This document shows, in pieces, positions 17,522 through 28,109 of a DNA stretch of 64,000 nt. Under the pieces are notes generated by a model. The model did no database searches. It had not been told where the DNA came from and was given only the letters and a program-made list of their open reading frames with translations. The stretch comes from Bacteroidetes bacterium 47-18 (GTDB taxonomy: Bacteria; Bacteroidota; Bacteroidia; Chitinophagales; Chitinophagaceae). How positions within the stretch are numbered: position 1 is the stretch's first letter; the number at the start of each line of letters is the position of its first letter. Made by a program: the position numbers and the translations under genes. The stretch lies in NCBI GenBank assembly GCA_001897155.1, contig MKSF01000013.1:124001-188000 (forward strand). Reading direction: 5' to 3'.

Positions 17522-17605
17522 GCGGAGGTGGCGAAACTGGTAGACGCGCAACGTTGAGGTCGTTGTGTCCGAAAGGACATGGGAGTTCGAATCTCCTCTT
17601 CCGCA
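17522..17605 (+). tRNA. tRNA-Leu (anticodon GAG)
   Basis: 84 nt. Acceptor GCGGAGG/CTTCCGC, D-arm GGCGAAACTGGTAGACGC, anticodon loop TTGAGGT (GAG), long variable arm TGTCCGAAAGGACA typical of class II tRNA, T-loop TTCGAAT, discriminator A. Confidence 0.96.
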
Positions 17606-17612
17606 CCTGAGT

Positions 17613-17650
17613 GGACAAAATGGATGCATTTCCGTTTTGTCCATTTTTAT
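17613..17650 (+). terminator. Terminator of tRNA-Leu
   Basis: tggacaaaatgg pairs with ccgttttgtcca (one G-T pair) and is followed by tttttatttttc. The same design follows tRNA-Met at 28769. Confidence 0.8.
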
Positions 17651-17689
17651 TTTTCAGATTAACTGAGATTAGTTTGAACACCTCATTTA

Positions 17690-18333
17690 TCAGTAGATGT
17701 TGTACTTTAAGGATTTCTCGTTTTTTTCCAGTTTGGGCAAGAGCGAATCAAGTATCTTTAAACTATGGTCAATCTTAATACGATCCATGTATTGGAATTT
17801 TCAGGTACAGATCTTTCTTCAGAATTTTTTTCACCATTTTTGTAAGTAACTAAAACAGGCTTTATTCGCCAAAGGGCGTACCACAGCATGGTCTGAGAGG
17901 ATTGGAGGAAATTAAAGTCGAATAAAAGTTTTATAGATAGTTTCATTTTTTACATTTATGAACTCTAAATTCAAAGTATCGTACGAACTGTTGAAATAAT
18001 ATTTTTCGATTTGCTCGTCTGTTCGAAGCTTTATCCTATCATCAATTGTAAGTATATGAATTGCCCCCCCCTTTTGAATACCAATAACGTGAGTTATCCA
18101 CATTTAATGTATCGGATTTTTCACTTGCAGAAATGATCAGCTCGCCTGTAGATTTGTAAGCAAAATGGTATCGTGTGACTATCAAAAGTTATTAATTTGT
18201 ACTTCCCGATAATAAATGAATCCCTTTCTTCCGACAGATAAAATTCTTTTAATAGTTCGCTCTTTTTTCTTGGACTACAGCTTAATGCAATCAAAAGCAT
18301 TGAAAGTAATATGAATACCTTTTTAATTTTTAT
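17690..18333 (-). pseudogene. Decayed lipoprotein gene
   Basis: On the minus strand from 18333, the frame reads KIKKVFILLS followed by a lipobox MLLIALSC, but the codon where Met is expected is ATA. The frame breaks near 18150. The following frame, continuing the same protein-like text (YKSTGELIISASEKSDTL), breaks again at a G8 tract (18064-18071 as C8 on +). A third frame continues to about 17935 (DRIKLRTDEQIEKYY), and fragments run on to a stop at 17690. No family recognised. Several lesions make this a pseudogene rather than one sequencing error, though the G8 tract could also be a phase-variable site. Confidence 0.55.
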
Positions 18334-18361
18334 ATCTTTAAATATATAATAGTTCCTGCTT

Positions 18362-18568
18362 CTAAAGGACAGGCATTAAAGCCCCAGACAATGATATTAG
18401 ATACCTTTTCATAGTATAGCTGTACCGGGTGCCAGTCTTTGGCAACTTGTTTTTATAAAGACGATATATTGGCAAATGAAATTGGGTAACAGTATAAATC
18501 GAATCTATGAATAGTAAGCTTTTCAGGTCATTGCTTAATAGCTTTGTTATATCCGGGTGATCTTCCTG
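18362..18568 (-). other. Open frame without start codon, possible gene remnant
   Basis: A 68-codon minus-strand frame (DITKLLSNDLKSLLFIDSIY...) opens after a stop at 18569 and ends at TAG 18362. It has no ATG near its start and no recognisable family. It lies between two decayed genes, so it may be another remnant. 18569-18660 shows nothing clear. Confidence 0.25.
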
Positions 18569-18662
18569 TCAGAAGCTGATGAAAGGTAATAAGACAGCAG
18601 CAGACAGGCGAGGAAAACATAGAGCCTGATGCCTAAAATTTCGCCGGCATTCCGGGGTCCGG

Positions 18663-19379
18663 TTATTGGGTTTTACGGGCCCCTATCGCTTTCAGGAAAT
18701 CGCTGCGACACCTCCTGCTCAACGGGATCGTCATATCCCCCACCTCTATTTCATTACCGTTTATCGCAGTGATATGAGCGAGATTGACGATGAATCGCTT
18801 GTGGCTTTTCAGCAGGCATTGGTCAGAAGGCTTTGCAGAGGCTGCTGTCATGCTTAGGTTGGTCATGACAGGCTTACGCTGTCCAGCTATATGCAGGAAT
18901 ACAAAATTGCCGTTGCCCTCTATGGCCAGAAGGTCCGCATTCAAAACCCTCAGCAGCTTGCCGCTGAATACATCTTTGACAAAGAAATATGCCCGGTCAC
19001 TACTTTCCCTTTTAGCCGTCCACAGACGCTTAGCTTTCTCTACGGCCTCCACAAATCGCACATACTGTACAGGCTTCAACAGATAATCCACAGCATCTGT
19101 CTCATACGCATCCTCCACATATTCTTTGGAACCCGATATGAAAATAATGGTCGTCAGCTTATGAATGATCCTGGCAATCTCAGGGCCGGTAATACTGCCC
19201 AATTGCACCTCAAGAAAACACAGATCCGGCTTTATCTCACCGGACAGCAGCTTTTGGGCGGCAATATATGAGTCCTGCTCATAGCCTAAGAGATACAGCT
19301 CTTCATGACGCTCCACGTAGGATATAATTTGCTTTGCCATTTCGCTTTCGTCATCAATGATATAGCAGGAGTAACTCAT
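18663..19379 (-). CDS. LytTR-family response regulator with Glu at the phospho-acceptor position
   Basis: 238 residues: an N-terminal CheY-like receiver (1-120) and a C-terminal LytTR DNA-binding domain (about 135-235: LAIEGNGNFVFLHI, LKSHKRFIVNLAHITAI). The acidic pocket YIIDDES is present, and so is the conserved Lys (YLLKPVQY). The phospho-acceptor Asp, normally in a FLD-type motif, is Glu57 (DLCFLEVQL). Glu at this site often mimics phosphorylation in other regulators. The cognate kinase gene immediately upstream (ATGA overlap) is reduced to a C-terminal remnant. This regulator may therefore work constitutively; that is inference. Confidence 0.88.
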   Translation of the reverse strand: MSYSCYIIDDESEMAKQIISYVERHEELYLLGYEQDSYIAAQKLLSGEIKPDLCFLEVQLGSITGPEIARIIHKLTTIIFISGSKEYVEDAYETDAVDYLLKPVQYVRFVEAVEKAKRLWTAKRESSDRAYFFVKDVFSGKLLRVLNADLLAIEGNGNFVFLHIAGQRKPVMTNLSMTAASAKPSDQCLLKSHKRFIVNLAHITAINGNEIEVGDMTIPLSRRCRSDFLKAIGARKTQ

Positions 19380-19550
19380 AAATTGATTTTTAGGTTAAGG
19401 GTAAATGTTTTTCCATCAGAGTTTAGATGCAGATGGTAATTACCGGCCCGGGCATCATCCGGGTGTATCATCAGGTTATGAGGTCCTATACCCGTATTCC
19501 CTGCTCATGCTGCTGTTTCAGCAAGGCTGATTCCTTAGGGCACTGCTCCC
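19376..19550 (-). pseudogene. C-terminal remnant of a LytS-type sensor histidine kinase
   Basis: Directly upstream of the response regulator, the minus strand reads GIGPHNLMIHPDDARAG and ends TFTLNLKINL with a TGA that overlaps the regulator's ATG (19376-19379). GIGxxN followed by a short strand ending in NLKI is the C-terminal end of the GHKL ATPase domain of LytS-type kinases. A frame break just upstream separates it from PKESALLKQQHEQGI, which fits the segment before the G box. Nothing upstream to 19800 restores an H box or N box. Confidence 0.6.
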
Positions 19551-20096
19551 CCCAGGTGGAAAACGAACCCATATACGGCGCTCATCCTCATCATGAAAAT
19601 GCCTGCCCAAACGGATTTGCTGAAGTTGGCGATGCCTTCTTAAGTACCAGGTATATATGGCGCCATTAATTCTACCCACCAGGATTTCAACCTTCGAAAA
19701 CCACCGCTTACACGAAAATAACGACCGTTTATCACTATTTATATCCCGCTTATCAATCTTTTTTCCTGAAATCCGCATTTAAAAATAGCTTTGATATAAT
19801 ATTGTATTTGCAATACAACAAACCAATACACATCATTGAAAAGGCACAGGAAAAATCCAACGTATCAGGTAAAATCTGCTTTCAATCTGTCATTTCAGGA
19901 AAGATATAGGTCCCAAGGTCTGTTCAGGCCTAACAACATGAACAATTAGCCTATTGGAAAACTAAAAACATTTGGGGATGGATCAGAAAGCCCGACCCGC
20001 TTTTAAACAAAAAGCTTCTTACTTTAGAAAAATATAAATTTGATTGGTAACTTCTTAGCAATATCTAAATTTTAACAAATAAAAATTAAATTATCT
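19551..20096. other. Intergenic, AT-rich, no gene recognised
   Basis: No protein-like frame with a plausible start was found. An inverted repeat ttgtatt-tgc-aatacaa lies at 19802-19818 and could be an operator, but no gene starts close to it. Confidence 0.4.
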
Positions 20097-20433: not shown

Positions 20434-20898
20434 ATGAAAAACACTTTACTGAGCCTTATCTTAATTATATTTTCCTTTGCCGGCTTTTCACAGGCTTCAG
20501 GTTTAAAAGTCATCAATAACAGTAACTGCTATGCCTTATTCCGGATATTTGGATCAGAGGATTGTAGCTGCAGAATGGATTACTACAGCAACCTGATCGG
20601 CGTACCGAGCGGCGGAATCCTTTACTTAACCAATACTACCCACTGGTTGATCGGGGGCAATTTTCCGATTTCAACACCTGCTTATGTGCATTCTGTGGTT
20701 ATGTACGGATCCAAAGTTTGCCAAGATCCATATATCTCTCCACTTTTTGGAGAACCGGCATGTGGGTATCCAACCTCCATACCATTTTCGACTCAGGACT
20801 GGGGCTGTGCAAATCTATGTGACCGCCTGGTTGCACAATGGTTGCATGACGACCTGTCTTGCGAGGGCACTGCCTATTTAACAATACTGGATCTATAA
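20434..20898 (+). CDS. Small secreted protein, array gene 1 (subtype A)
   Basis: About 154 residues. The signal peptide MKNTLLSLILIIFSFAGFSQA is followed by a short mature protein starting SGLKVINNSNCYALFRI. It shares with the other array members the N-terminal strand pattern, the YYSNLIGVPSG block and the STPAYVHSVVMYGS block. Nine Cys are scattered through the mature part. I start at the second Met since the first adds only two residues. No known family recognised. Subtype A is shared with truncated gene 4. Confidence 0.75.
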   Translation: MKNTLLSLILIIFSFAGFSQASGLKVINNSNCYALFRIFGSEDCSCRMDYYSNLIGVPSGGILYLTNTTHWLIGGNFPISTPAYVHSVVMYGSKVCQDPYISPLFGEPACGYPTSIPFSTQDWGCANLCDRLVAQWLHDDLSCEGTAYLTILDL

Positions 20899-20992: not shown

Positions 20993-21448
20993 ATGAAAAA
21001 TCTATTATTAAGTTTCGCCTTGGTCCTATTATCCTTTGCAGGCTATGCTACATCCAGCGGTATCGAAATTATCAACCAGAGTGACTGTGATATCTATATA
21101 CAGATCCAGGGTTCTAAAACCTGTCCGAGCTGCGATGTAGAATACATTAGCAACATGATAGTCGTACCGGCCTCAGGAACAGCACTTTTCCCAAATACGA
21201 CCATGTTGGGCGGAAGCTTTCCGGTCGCAATGCCAGCCTTCGTTCATTCAGCTATCATTTATAGCGGACCTACCTATTGTCAGCCATTGGAAAGATGGCG
21301 GATTGGTGATCAAATCTGTAATTATCCTCCTGAAATTGTATTTTGGTCTATGAACCAGAATTGCGATAGAAAGTGTGACTGTCTGAGGGCCCGTTGGTTG
21401 CCTGCTCCCTGTACCGGCATAGCAAGAATCATTATTCAACCTTGTTAA
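20993..21448 (+). CDS. Small secreted cysteine-rich protein, array gene 2 (subtype B)
   Basis: 151 residues. The signal peptide ends at FAGYATS, then mature SGIEIINQSDCDIYIQIQG. The mature part has ten Cys, including CPSC, a CDRKCDC cluster and a C-terminal Cys, so it is probably stabilised by disulfides outside the cytoplasm. Conserved blocks shared with genes 3 and 5 are PAFVHSAIIYSGP, LERWRIGD, FWSMNQNC and GIARIIIQPC. No T9SS tail and no known domain seen. Function unknown; a secreted effector, adhesin or antimicrobial are all possible. Confidence 0.8.
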   Translation: MKNLLLSFALVLLSFAGYATSSGIEIINQSDCDIYIQIQGSKTCPSCDVEYISNMIVVPASGTALFPNTTMLGGSFPVAMPAFVHSAIIYSGPTYCQPLERWRIGDQICNYPPEIVFWSMNQNCDRKCDCLRARWLPAPCTGIARIIIQPC

Positions 21449-21536: not shown

Positions 21537-21983
21537 ATGAAAAATCTATTATTAAGTTTCGTCTTAGTTCTATTATCCTTTGCGGGATATTCTACATCCA
21601 GCGGTATCGAAATACACAACAATACCGAATGCGATATTTACCTCCAGATCAGAGGGTCCCATGAGTGTCCCAATTGTGAAATTGAATTGATAAGTTGCAT
21701 GATAGTGATACCTCCCGGGGCACATATTACTTATCCAACTACAAGTAGTATATGCAACTTCCCCGCAGCTTCAGCTTTTGTACACTCGGTGCTCCTATAT
21801 AGCGGTCCACGCCATTGCCAACCTTTAGAAACTTGGGAAGTCGGCGATCCTCAATGTTATCCGCCAGATGTCACATTCTGGAGCATGAACCGGGCATGTG
21901 AGCCAGTATGTGACTGCCTGCATGCCAGATGGGAACCTGCCGAATGCGATGGCATCGCCCGCCTCATCATAGAACGTTGCTAA
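21537..21983 (+). CDS. Small secreted cysteine-rich protein, array gene 3 (subtype B)
   Basis: 148 residues and clearly paralogous to gene 2: the first ~30 residues are nearly identical (MKNLLLSFVLVLLSFAGYS), followed by SGIEIHNNTECDIYLQIRG, CPNC, AFVHSVLLYSGPRHCQPLE, FWSMNRACEPVCDC and GIARLIIERC. The signal peptide is more conserved than the mature part, suggesting diversification of the secreted portion. A CCGTTGCACAGG segment follows the stop at 22006-22017, an inverted copy of the upstream CCTGTGCAA. Confidence 0.8.
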   Translation: MKNLLLSFVLVLLSFAGYSTSSGIEIHNNTECDIYLQIRGSHECPNCEIELISCMIVIPPGAHITYPTTSSICNFPAASAFVHSVLLYSGPRHCQPLETWEVGDPQCYPPDVTFWSMNRACEPVCDCLHARWEPAECDGIARLIIERC

Positions 21984-25386: not shown

Positions 25387-25842
25387 ATGAAAAACATCTT
25401 ATTAAGCGCCATCCTGGTTTTATTATCCCTTGCGGGTTATGCTACTTCCCGCGGCATCCAAATTATCAACAAAAGCGACTGTGAACTCAATATCGAGATA
25501 CAGGGCTCAGAAAAATGTCCCGATTGTACTATTAAATATACCAGCAACTGGATCGTGATTCCTCCCGTTGCAACTGTCACATTCCCCAATACAACTATGC
25601 TCGGTGGTTCCTTCCCGACATCTTCCCCGGCCTTCATAAACTCGGCTATCATTTACAGCGGACCTCGCCACTGTCCCCGGTTAGAAAGATGGCTGATCGG
25701 CGATCCCAAATGCGGCTTCCCGCACCAGATCCAATTTTACACAATGAACCAAAATTGTGAGAGAAAATGTCCCTGCCTGAAAGCCACCTGGAAACGCTCC
25801 GATTGTGACGGCATTGCACAACTGATCATAGAACCCTGCTAA
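25387..25842 (+). CDS. Small secreted cysteine-rich protein, array gene 5 (subtype B)
   Basis: 151 residues from MKNILLSAILVLLSLAGYATS; an upstream in-frame Met at 25345 would place 14 non-signal residues ahead of the signal peptide and overlap the conserved upstream block. Mature part: GIQIINKSDCELNIEIQG, CPDC, FPNTTMLGGSFP, INSAIIYSGPRHC, MNQNCERKCPC and GIAQLIIEPC. It is closest to gene 2. CCGTTGCACAGG follows the stop (25863-25874), as after gene 3. Confidence 0.8.
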   Translation: MKNILLSAILVLLSLAGYATSRGIQIINKSDCELNIEIQGSEKCPDCTIKYTSNWIVIPPVATVTFPNTTMLGGSFPTSSPAFINSAIIYSGPRHCPRLERWLIGDPKCGFPHQIQFYTMNQNCERKCPCLKATWKRSDCDGIAQLIIEPC

Positions 25843-26465: not shown

Positions 26466-28109
26466 TTACCTGACAATGGTAAATGCCTGGCCGGACCTCC
26501 ATTCTTTACAGGAAAAGAAAATGGTATAATTACCGGAAGGCAGCCCGGATACATCTACGGAGCTTTCATTTTTCCGGCCGGTTGCAGCCTGGTACACTTC
26601 CTGTCCCTGCGCGTTATAAATACTCACAGCTTCATATCCCGATATATTTTCTATATTTAATACTTCGCTGACTGGATTAGGATATATCCTGACTGATACT
26701 GCATCGGGTGACGGGCGTTCGATCTTTGCAGGGCCAAAACCGTATCCCGGTCCGCTGTATTTATAGTAAATATCATACCCCTGATTATATGCCGTAATCA
26801 TATTATCCCCTCCGTTACAGCTATTCGATACGGATACACAGGGTACCCGGTCGTTGTAAGTAATGGTCGGCATGTTGTTGATTTGCTCATAAGAAGCAGT
26901 GGACATGTTGGGACTATTGTCCATATAATTGGCAAAGAAACCGGGGTTGGTGTACCCGGGGTAATTAACCCGGTGCCAGGCAAAAGTAAATTGATTATTA
27001 CCCCAGTCTCCGCTGCTGCCGGGGAAATAATTCCCAAGGCCTGCCGTTACATCTGCGTCCAGGTTCAGGTCGGTACTAAAGTTTACGGTATTGTCAAAAA
27101 ACGAACCATTATCCGTATAGGTATGTATGGCCGTACTGTTGTGGCTACCTGTAGTCGCCCATTTCGGATTGGGGCCCCAATATTCTCCCACACTATAGCC
27201 TTCTATCCGGAACCTGTTGTAATCATCGGAGGGGGTCAGAGGAAAATCGTTATCGCTCCAACTGTTCAGATGGATCTCTTTTACGATGATATCAGGCGGA
27301 AAATTAGCATCATAGAAGACTGCATAAGCGAACGGTTCGCCGATATCCAGGTAATTGACCGCGCAAATGTCCTGGACAGAGTTAGCCGGATAGGAAGCGG
27401 AGGAGGCTGAGGATATAGGATCAGCGACCCGGCAACGGGTTATCACCATATCAGGAAGTCCAAACCTGTTATAGGCCAGGACAAATTCATTCATTACCGG
27501 TCTGTCATCACCAGGAAATGGGATCATTTGACTGATATCTGCCAGGACATCTATGCTGGGATCATAGCCATAGTCCACAAATTCAGTTGACAAATGATTA
27601 AGGGCCACCACCTGCTCCATCGCATCTAATTGCGCCTGGTATCTTGTAAGATATACCTCCCAATCACTTCCGTTCCACTCCGTATAAGCCACTATAACTA
27701 TAAAGGCATCCTGCCGTTGTTCATCATTGGCTATAATTACATCCGGTGAGGTTGTGTGCGAACCGCCCGTGTAATAGCCTACGCCCGAATAATTCCCGGT
27801 AATCGGCGCCTGGATCGGCGTTGCTCCCAAAGGGATACCTGCCGTACTTTCCACGAATAGTTCAACCGTGCCACTGTTATCCCACTTTACAACTATAGCG
27901 CTTACCTGGTAAATTGAAGATCCGTCAGTAGATGGAAAATCAATCATCGCGGTGCGGACAGAGGCCATCGGATCAGCGCCTGTCAATTGTGTGCTGGGAA
28001 TGCCCGGCGGTATAATTGTCTGGCCCAGCATACTATCGGGCTTTGAAAGAAGCGCTAAAAAGGTTAATTGCATGAGCAATAATGCGGATTTCGTGATTTT
28101 CATTTTCAT
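26466..28109 (-). CDS. Secreted protein with type A T9SS sorting domain
   Basis: 547 residues. The signal peptide ends near SMLGQ. The long middle region has no enzymatic motif I recognise and resembles T9SS cargo with repeated beta segments. The last ~75 residues hold a Por_Secre_tail: VRIYPNPVSEVLNIEN, AVSIYNAQGQEVYQ, SSVDVSGLPSGNYTI and a terminal IVR. It is therefore likely exported across the outer membrane by the T9SS and possibly surface-anchored. The start is supported by the signal peptide MKMKITKSALLLMQLTFLAL. Confidence 0.87.
   Translation of the reverse strand: MKMKITKSALLLMQLTFLALLSKPDSMLGQTIIPPGIPSTQLTGADPMASVRTAMIDFPSTDGSSIYQVSAIVVKWDNSGTVELFVESTAGIPLGATPIQAPITGNYSGVGYYTGGSHTTSPDVIIANDEQRQDAFIVIVAYTEWNGSDWEVYLTRYQAQLDAMEQVVALNHLSTEFVDYGYDPSIDVLADISQMIPFPGDDRPVMNEFVLAYNRFGLPDMVITRCRVADPISSASSASYPANSVQDICAVNYLDIGEPFAYAVFYDANFPPDIIVKEIHLNSWSDNDFPLTPSDDYNRFRIEGYSVGEYWGPNPKWATTGSHNSTAIHTYTDNGSFFDNTVNFSTDLNLDADVTAGLGNYFPGSSGDWGNNQFTFAWHRVNYPGYTNPGFFANYMDNSPNMSTASYEQINNMPTITYNDRVPCVSVSNSCNGGDNMITAYNQGYDIYYKYSGPGYGFGPAKIERPSPDAVSVRIYPNPVSEVLNIENISGYEAVSIYNAQGQEVYQAATGRKNESSVDVSGLPSGNYTIFFSCKEWRSGQAFTIVR

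Follow-up and report, generated by a model that had tools for sequence, protein, structure and literature searches.

Our main finding is that a LytTR response regulator gene in the window, by which we mean the whole 64-kb stretch of DNA analysed here, is the sole intact gene of a collapsed cassette for a LanB-type RiPP, and that it carries Glu at residue 57, the phospho-acceptor position. The collapse of the peptide cassette is the larger event at this locus and was missing from the first-pass annotation, which had described the regulator and a dead kinase gene next to it. Glu57 is exceptional. Both a regulator that is permanently on and a regulator that is decaying were entertained as explanations, and relaxed constraint is the most likely one. 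We give about an even chance to the reading that the window regulator is the stranded last open reading frame of the cassette, drifting under relaxed constraint. The features of the locus are the following:

18663..19379, minus strand: LytTR response regulator, 238 aa, sole intact gene of the collapsed cassette (open reading frame; Pfam PF00072 and PF04397)
19209..19211, minus strand: GAG, the codon for Glu57, at the phospho-acceptor position (all 64 other aligned rows have Asp)
19376..19492, minus strand: kinase pseudogene, C-terminal piece of 38 codons and a stop, the stop overlapping the regulator's ATG (tblastn to residues 339-376 of the kinase of genome G279; profile)
19556..19621, minus strand: probable kinase pseudogene piece, matching kinase residues 142-163 (ungapped score 42)
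19518..19778, minus strand: frame with a possible N-terminal kinase relic (weak: score 27-28, not above shuffles; position; DNA alignment of the divergent zone)
19779..19835, no strand: zone that separated the divergent starts of the kinase and the precursor (global alignment with locus L048)
19836..19901, plus strand: relic of a LanA-type precursor leader, its start no longer ATG and its core unrecognisable (ungapped score of 59 to the leader at L048 of G279)

In the case of the regulator itself, Pfam recognises both a receiver (Response_reg, PF00072, E 1e-11, 45.4 bits with a cut-off of 30.2) and a LytTR domain (PF04397, E 1.3e-8, 35.3 bits with a cut-off of 22.6). By Pfam and by fold, the open reading frame thus has the N-terminal receiver and C-terminal LytTR domain of a LytTR response regulator. 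It lacks a phosphorylatable Asp and a cognate kinase, as residue 57 is Glu and the kinase is a pseudogene. A receiver fold with the phospho-Asp replaced defines an aspartate-less receiver, and the window regulator has this constitution. Its AlphaFold model has a mean pLDDT of 91 and a pTM of 0.58, in a type of model that responds little to single residue changes. The top five fold matches of the model are all full-length ComE (4cbv), the closest solved fold. The Glu at residue 57 (GAG), reported in the first-pass annotation, was confirmed; each of the 64 other regulators in the comparison has Asp there. Elsewhere in the receiver, D9, D10 and K102 are kept, Thr82 is now Ser, and the changes M60L, P61G and A88V are present.

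The rarity of Glu57 was judged on an alignment of 65 distinct LytTR regulators, picked by similarity to the window regulator and with identical copies dropped. The rows derive from three sets of matches: 10 of 10, 29 of 37 outside the window genome (those with loci given) and 27 of 27. Position 57 is Asp in 64 of the 65 regulators and Glu in the window regulator alone. A LytS-type kinase lies within the fetched flanks of 58 regulators, and Asp is present in 58 of these 58. Orthologues with intact kinases that also bear Glu57, which the first-pass annotation had named as evidence against its own proposal, were consequently not seen among the kinase-paired regulators. Seven rows have no LytS-type match in their flanks. 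Three of them, L014, L135 and L143, adjoin a sensor gene that is longer or of another kind, and all three have Asp. At L014 this is a long sensor gene whose His_kinase domain lies beyond the fetched flank; at L135 and L143 the neighbour is a different histidine-kinase-like gene (motif recognised by eye). On recheck, four rows count as kinase-less within about 1.5 kb: the window regulator with Glu, as against L050, L140 and L145 with Asp. Kinase loss alone therefore does not bring Glu, since these three regulators, for which a kinase was not found, keep Asp.

In addition, the Glu motif was searched for as a DNA pattern in 394 genomes of the family. This gave six matches, which is chance level, the backwards control giving seven (own count). 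Only the match in the window is a receiver; the other five read F-F-E in non-receiver frames. In the 60 genomes to which the Asp form of the pattern was applied, it matched 272 times, and both patterns would miss receivers with a differently worded motif.

The intact form of the cassette was found in related genomes. The nearest relative of the window regulator found across the 394 genomes, with 44% identity (next 36%), is encoded at G279 C18 (locus L048), and a maximum-likelihood tree of the 65 regulators pairs the two (100/97). At this locus, a regulator with Asp57 is accompanied by an intact 376-aa kinase with a Pfam His_kinase domain, an RteC gene, a 923-aa LanB (Pfam Lant_dehydr_N and Lant_dehydr_C) and a 49-aa precursor-like peptide with a Cys at its end. 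The gene order of the intact cassette is lanB (+), lytTR regulator (-), lytS kinase (-) and lanA-like precursor (+), often with rteC. Both the window regulator and the L050 regulator belong to a 13-row clade (support 90/88; inner nine rows 98/92). Whether relatives keep the kinase, a check proposed with the first annotation, could be answered: a kinase and LanB adjoin the regulator in all 11 clade rows that belong to other genomes, and an RteC-like gene is near 8 of the 11. Matches to LanB (PF14028) in G279 (four), G239 (one) and G191 (one) each adjoin a clade-type regulator, and LanB without a listed regulator adjoining is represented by the one in G124 and three of four in G006.

Recurrence of the lanB / LytTR regulator / LytS kinase cassette was observed at L048, L101 and L152-L160, in several genera of the family, with a small precursor-like open reading frame in most of these loci. 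It is possible that these cassettes constitute a LytTR-regulated RiPP system. We call the product class RiPP, lanthipeptide-like; the LanB also matches the NCBIfam model thiopep_ocin. The name lanA rests on the position, length and Ser/Thr-rich composition of the precursor-like peptides, and NCBIfam models gave no match for the four of them compared (L048, L153, L154 and L160). A similar organisation is known from LanR/LanK of type 1 lantibiotic clusters, where kinase and regulator are encoded with LanB and the precursor as in the relatives' cassette; one Chitinophaga cluster, in contrast, is reported to have a regulator of the LuxR family, not LytTR (PMC3091789). A LytTR-LanB cassette was not found described in the open-access literature searched on LytTR with lanthipeptides in Bacteroidetes and on RteC with lantibiotic dehydratase or LytTR, including passages of PMC7440613, PMC3091789 and PMC10352776.

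The window locus is like the family's LytS-LytTR pairs beside LanB-type RiPP genes in its clade, its gene order and the overlap of kinase end and regulator start, and it retains the cassette order of regulator, kinase pieces and precursor-leader relic. Unlike these loci, it has no kinase, no LanB and no precursor core, and it has Glu57.

In the case of the kinase, about 38 codons of a LytS-type kinase end (GIG...NLKINL) overlapping the regulator had already been recognised in the first annotation. This assignment is upheld, with the correction that the relic is probably longer than 38 codons. The 38 codons at 19379-19492 align without gaps to the C-terminus of the nearest relative's intact kinase (13 of 38 identical). 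A kinase-end profile made from relatives also places its best match here when run on six frames of the window, with 6.9 bits as compared to 0.3 for the next place. Pfam gives no match for the 39-aa kinase fragment, and the kinase assignment therefore rests on alignments and position. With its score of 42, the piece at 19556-19621 barely rises above the shuffled background (60 shuffles, whose top scores reached 38 at the 95th percentile and 43 at most). From the sequence alignment we infer that the lost kinase started near 19778, where an ATG matches the position of the relative's kinase start. A kinase of about 1.13 kb (1131 bp in the relative) has been reduced to about 0.4 kb, with a changed frame and about 700 bp missing. 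Regarding other partners, all eight LytS-type (PF06580) kinase genes of the genome are near other LytTR regulators, and within this PF06580 family no unpaired partner was found for the window regulator or for L050.

The precursor-leader relic at 19836-19901 (+) was absent from the first annotation. Its ungapped score of 59 to the L048 leader compares with 34 for the next best place in the window (six frames); other loci, 454 kb in all, gave at best 37 once the leader's own place was set aside. The surrounding DNA is 71% identical to L048 over 77 columns (E 1e-6); for the regulator DNA, identity to that of the relative is 60% over 463 columns. A Ser/Thr/Cys core was not recognised at the relic, so that a precursor with both leader and core is not present there. 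Global alignment of 19765-19905 with L048 gave a score of 95.5, the maximum of 300 shuffles being 70.5. In what used to be the divergent promoter zone, a perfect 17-bp inverted repeat was noticed at 19802-19818 (TTGTATT TGC AATACAA); there is none in the matching stretch of L048 that was scanned. The promoter motif of Bacteroidota is TAnnTTTG with a -33 box, and this combination was not found upstream of the window regulator.

No lanB lies next to the regulator. A LanB remnant in the window was considered and rejected, the best profile score being -5.8 at 17.4-23 kb. In the window genome, which is 98.8% complete, searches with the G279 protein and with PF14028 gave no LanB match; the PF14028 search matched in six of eight genomes searched, with four copies in G279. 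LanB is thus neither at the locus nor found in the genome, and the window locus is therefore a relic and not a member of the cassette. About 1 kb of decayed-looking DNA lies at 17640-18650, between a tRNA-Leu gene (17522-17607) and the regulator. This stretch, where LanB would have lain, has pieces that read like a lipoprotein gene.

A second collapsed locus, L050, is present in the same genome. Here, a paralogue of the window regulator (33-34% identity) with a similar neighbourhood is found without kinase or LanB, and it has kept its Asp. The L050 regulator pairs in the tree with one of genome G239 (100/99). Compared to the G239 cassette, the L050 DNA is 58% identical in the regulator and 67% identical at the kinase start (98 columns, E 1.5e-5), and about 1.05 kb of G239 between the regulator and the kinase start is reduced to 182 bp. 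A profile search gave no kinase relic at L050, although the DNA match at the kinase start did appear, and a search for a precursor leader gave no match above background. Since both the window locus and L050 are without a kinase, the kinase was lost twice and Asp was kept once. In keeping its Asp, L050 is like most orphan regulators, which are typical receivers (PMC12632262).

To describe the constraint on the window regulator, conserved columns of the alignment were compared by leaving out one row at a time. With conservation in 90% or more of rows as the threshold, the window regulator differs at 8 of 16 columns, more than any other of the 65 rows (median 0); at 80% and 70% it ranks third and sixth. 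The eight departures are D57E, M60L, P61G, T82S and A88V in the receiver and L184P, F189L and S195R in the LytTR domain, so that neither domain is spared. When the columns are selected from rows outside the clade, the picture depends on the threshold. At 95% or more, the window regulator is changed at four of seven columns and the other 12 clade rows at zero to two. At 90% or more (22 columns), its nine changes equal those of L129 (nine), and L124 and L050 have eight; at 80% and 70%, L124 has more changes than the window regulator. The end branch of the window regulator in the tree (1.12; sister 0.76, and up to 1.57 in the clade) is not exceptionally fast. All 238 codons of the frame are open, and its alignment with the relative has just three short gaps, though the neighbouring kinase is cut up. 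Its codon-position GC is coding-like, with a GC3 of 0.55 as compared to 0.35-0.44 in the flanking decayed DNA, though most conserved genes measured have a higher GC3 (0.62-0.71). The regulator is the gene left open in both collapsed loci, which hints at use. A search of the genome contig collection with the regulator protein found no relative, and the genus is represented by one genome. Altogether, the losses at conserved columns appear to reflect relaxed constraint, a reading that we hold with moderate confidence, and they agree with it no less well than with a phosphomimic kept by selection.

Next to the regulator lies a group of genes for secreted proteins:

20434..20898, plus strand: secreted small Cys-rich protein (alignment)
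20993..21448, plus strand: secreted small Cys-rich protein (alignment)
21537..21983, plus strand: secreted small Cys-rich protein (alignment)
25387..25842, plus strand: secreted small Cys-rich protein (alignment)
26466..28109, minus strand: secreted protein with a type IX sorting tail (Pfam PF18962)

The Cys-rich family has nine full copies in the window genome (20434-25842 of the window; 7629-8102 of L050; L057, L060 and L062), with eight invariant Cys in the nine aligned copies, and matches in 16 of 394 genomes and 7 of 101 genera. Its genes adjoin the window regulator, the L050 regulator and an intact kinase-regulator-LanB cassette at G279 C33. The best other match of the 26466-28109 protein in the same genome adjoins the L050 regulator, so that this type of protein accompanies both stranded regulators. 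In the fetched flanks of the own genome, a Cys-rich gene is present for two of two clade regulators and for none of the eight others. Overall, 21 Cys-gene stretches were compared, and 5 of them are flanked by a LytTR gene. Receiver-less proteins with a LytTR domain (by Pfam for the L100 copy) were observed directly upstream of Cys-rich arrays at L100 (8803-9801; G279 C15) and L103 (9350-10399; G239 C11), in two genomes of one sister genus; by eye, they have N-terminal hydrophobic segments. Several Cys-rich genes are also preceded by a similar element (TGCCTGTGCAATRG..TTCTTTTTT), seen by eye about 50 bp before the ATG, and this element likewise precedes Cys-rich copies without a LytTR gene nearby. 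The link between LytTR and Cys-rich genes looks real on sequence grounds, and the shared upstream element is a by-eye candidate only. The model of the 20993-21448 protein is a confident beta-rich fold. Foldseek gave no match for it at E<=0.001, and a second structure comparison gave a best Z of 7.0, with aegerolysin-like chains and actinoporins at Z 4.9-6.4, too low to trust.

The first-pass annotation had suggested that the two-component system could have become a constitutive regulator. Of this suggestion, the kinase loss and the change at the phospho-site hold, and constitutive activity is possible. It is unproven because near-invariant residues are lost in both domains and because three kinase-less regulators keep Asp. 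A co-opted constitutive regulator, kept for the divergent Cys-rich genes and held by Glu57 in a permanent active-like state with the aid of K102 and Ser82, can tentatively be proposed; the five loci at which LytTR genes adjoin Cys-rich genes make it a rival to be taken seriously. It would account for Cys-rich genes flanking both stranded regulators and the G279 C33 pair, for receiver-less LytTR proteins at two more loci, for the two of two against zero of eight in the own genome, and for an intact frame with a predicted fold (pLDDT 91). Furthermore, ComE D58E is dimeric without DNA and permits constitutive competence, and CdtR D61E is partly active (PMC12482169); a target probe is bound by phosphomimetic ComE and not by wild type (PMC11109429). 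Domain layout, site and change are the same in these proteins as in the window regulator, but their changes were engineered in working regulators, whereas the window change is natural and comes with other altered core residues (PMC12482169, PMC11109429). In aspartate-less receivers the Asp is most often replaced by Glu (26%), and a change from Asp to Glu may activate a receiver, yet often does not do so by itself (PMC4395418). Co-option is further weakened by the Asp of L050, L140 and L145, by the changes L184P, F189L and S195R in the LytTR domain, and by the occurrence of the shared upstream element before Cys-rich genes away from LytTR regulators. That the dead cassette gave the regulator a new job, with Glu57 locking an active-like state that permanently drives the flanking Cys-rich genes, we regard as unlikely.

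Known aspartate-less or pseudo-receivers such as ChxR, which has Glu, resemble the window regulator in fold, in the Glu and in having no adjoining partner kinase (PMC4395418, PMC12632262). Unlike these, the window regulator has a LytTR output, Asp in all relatives compared and a kinase wreck adjoining. Redox control is known in other aspartate-less receivers (PMC12632262), and the genome holds a paralogue in a similar neighbourhood. Regulation of the receiver without Asp57, e.g. by a heterodimer with the Asp-bearing L050 paralogue or by a redox or protein-protein signal, nevertheless seems quite improbable, as it has left no direct sign in the sequence and the window and L050 regulators differ in their closest tree relatives. 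An assembly or sequencing error behind the broken kinase or the GAG codon could be imagined in a draft genome of 39 contigs from a genus without a second genome. Such an error would have to explain a loss of about 700 bp with a frame change in the kinase, the loss of the precursor core, a LanB not found in a 98.8% complete assembly and the same kind of loss at L050. As the losses are many and large, we judge it very unlikely.

A LanB-type cassette of this kind should be a regulated peptide system, in which the kinase would phosphorylate Asp57 and the regulator would drive the cluster. Comparison with the relatives shows that the window lineage has lost lanB, that its kinase has been truncated and has changed frame, and that a leader fragment is what is left of the precursor. 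Asp57 has become Glu, presumably after the kinase had gone and Asp had become dispensable, an order of events that we infer. Under the preferred reading of a stranded regulator, the protein would now be drifting and, if still made, would not switch via Asp57 and would have at most weak phosphate-independent activity.

Aspartate-less receivers are common, and their origin is rarely visible. Here, an intact ancestor-like cassette, a kinase wreck, a precursor relic and the Asp-keeping L050 can be compared. Direct comparison of these remains therefore makes the order 'kinase loss first, then Asp loss' testable with a few more strains. If the regulator did receive a new job, the window regulator and L050, with its kinase lost and its Asp kept, would form a before-and-after pair for the conversion of a two-component into a one-component regulator. 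As a whole, the comparison suggests that LytS-LytTR pairs regulate a LanB-type peptide cassette in genomes of the family Chitinophagaceae.
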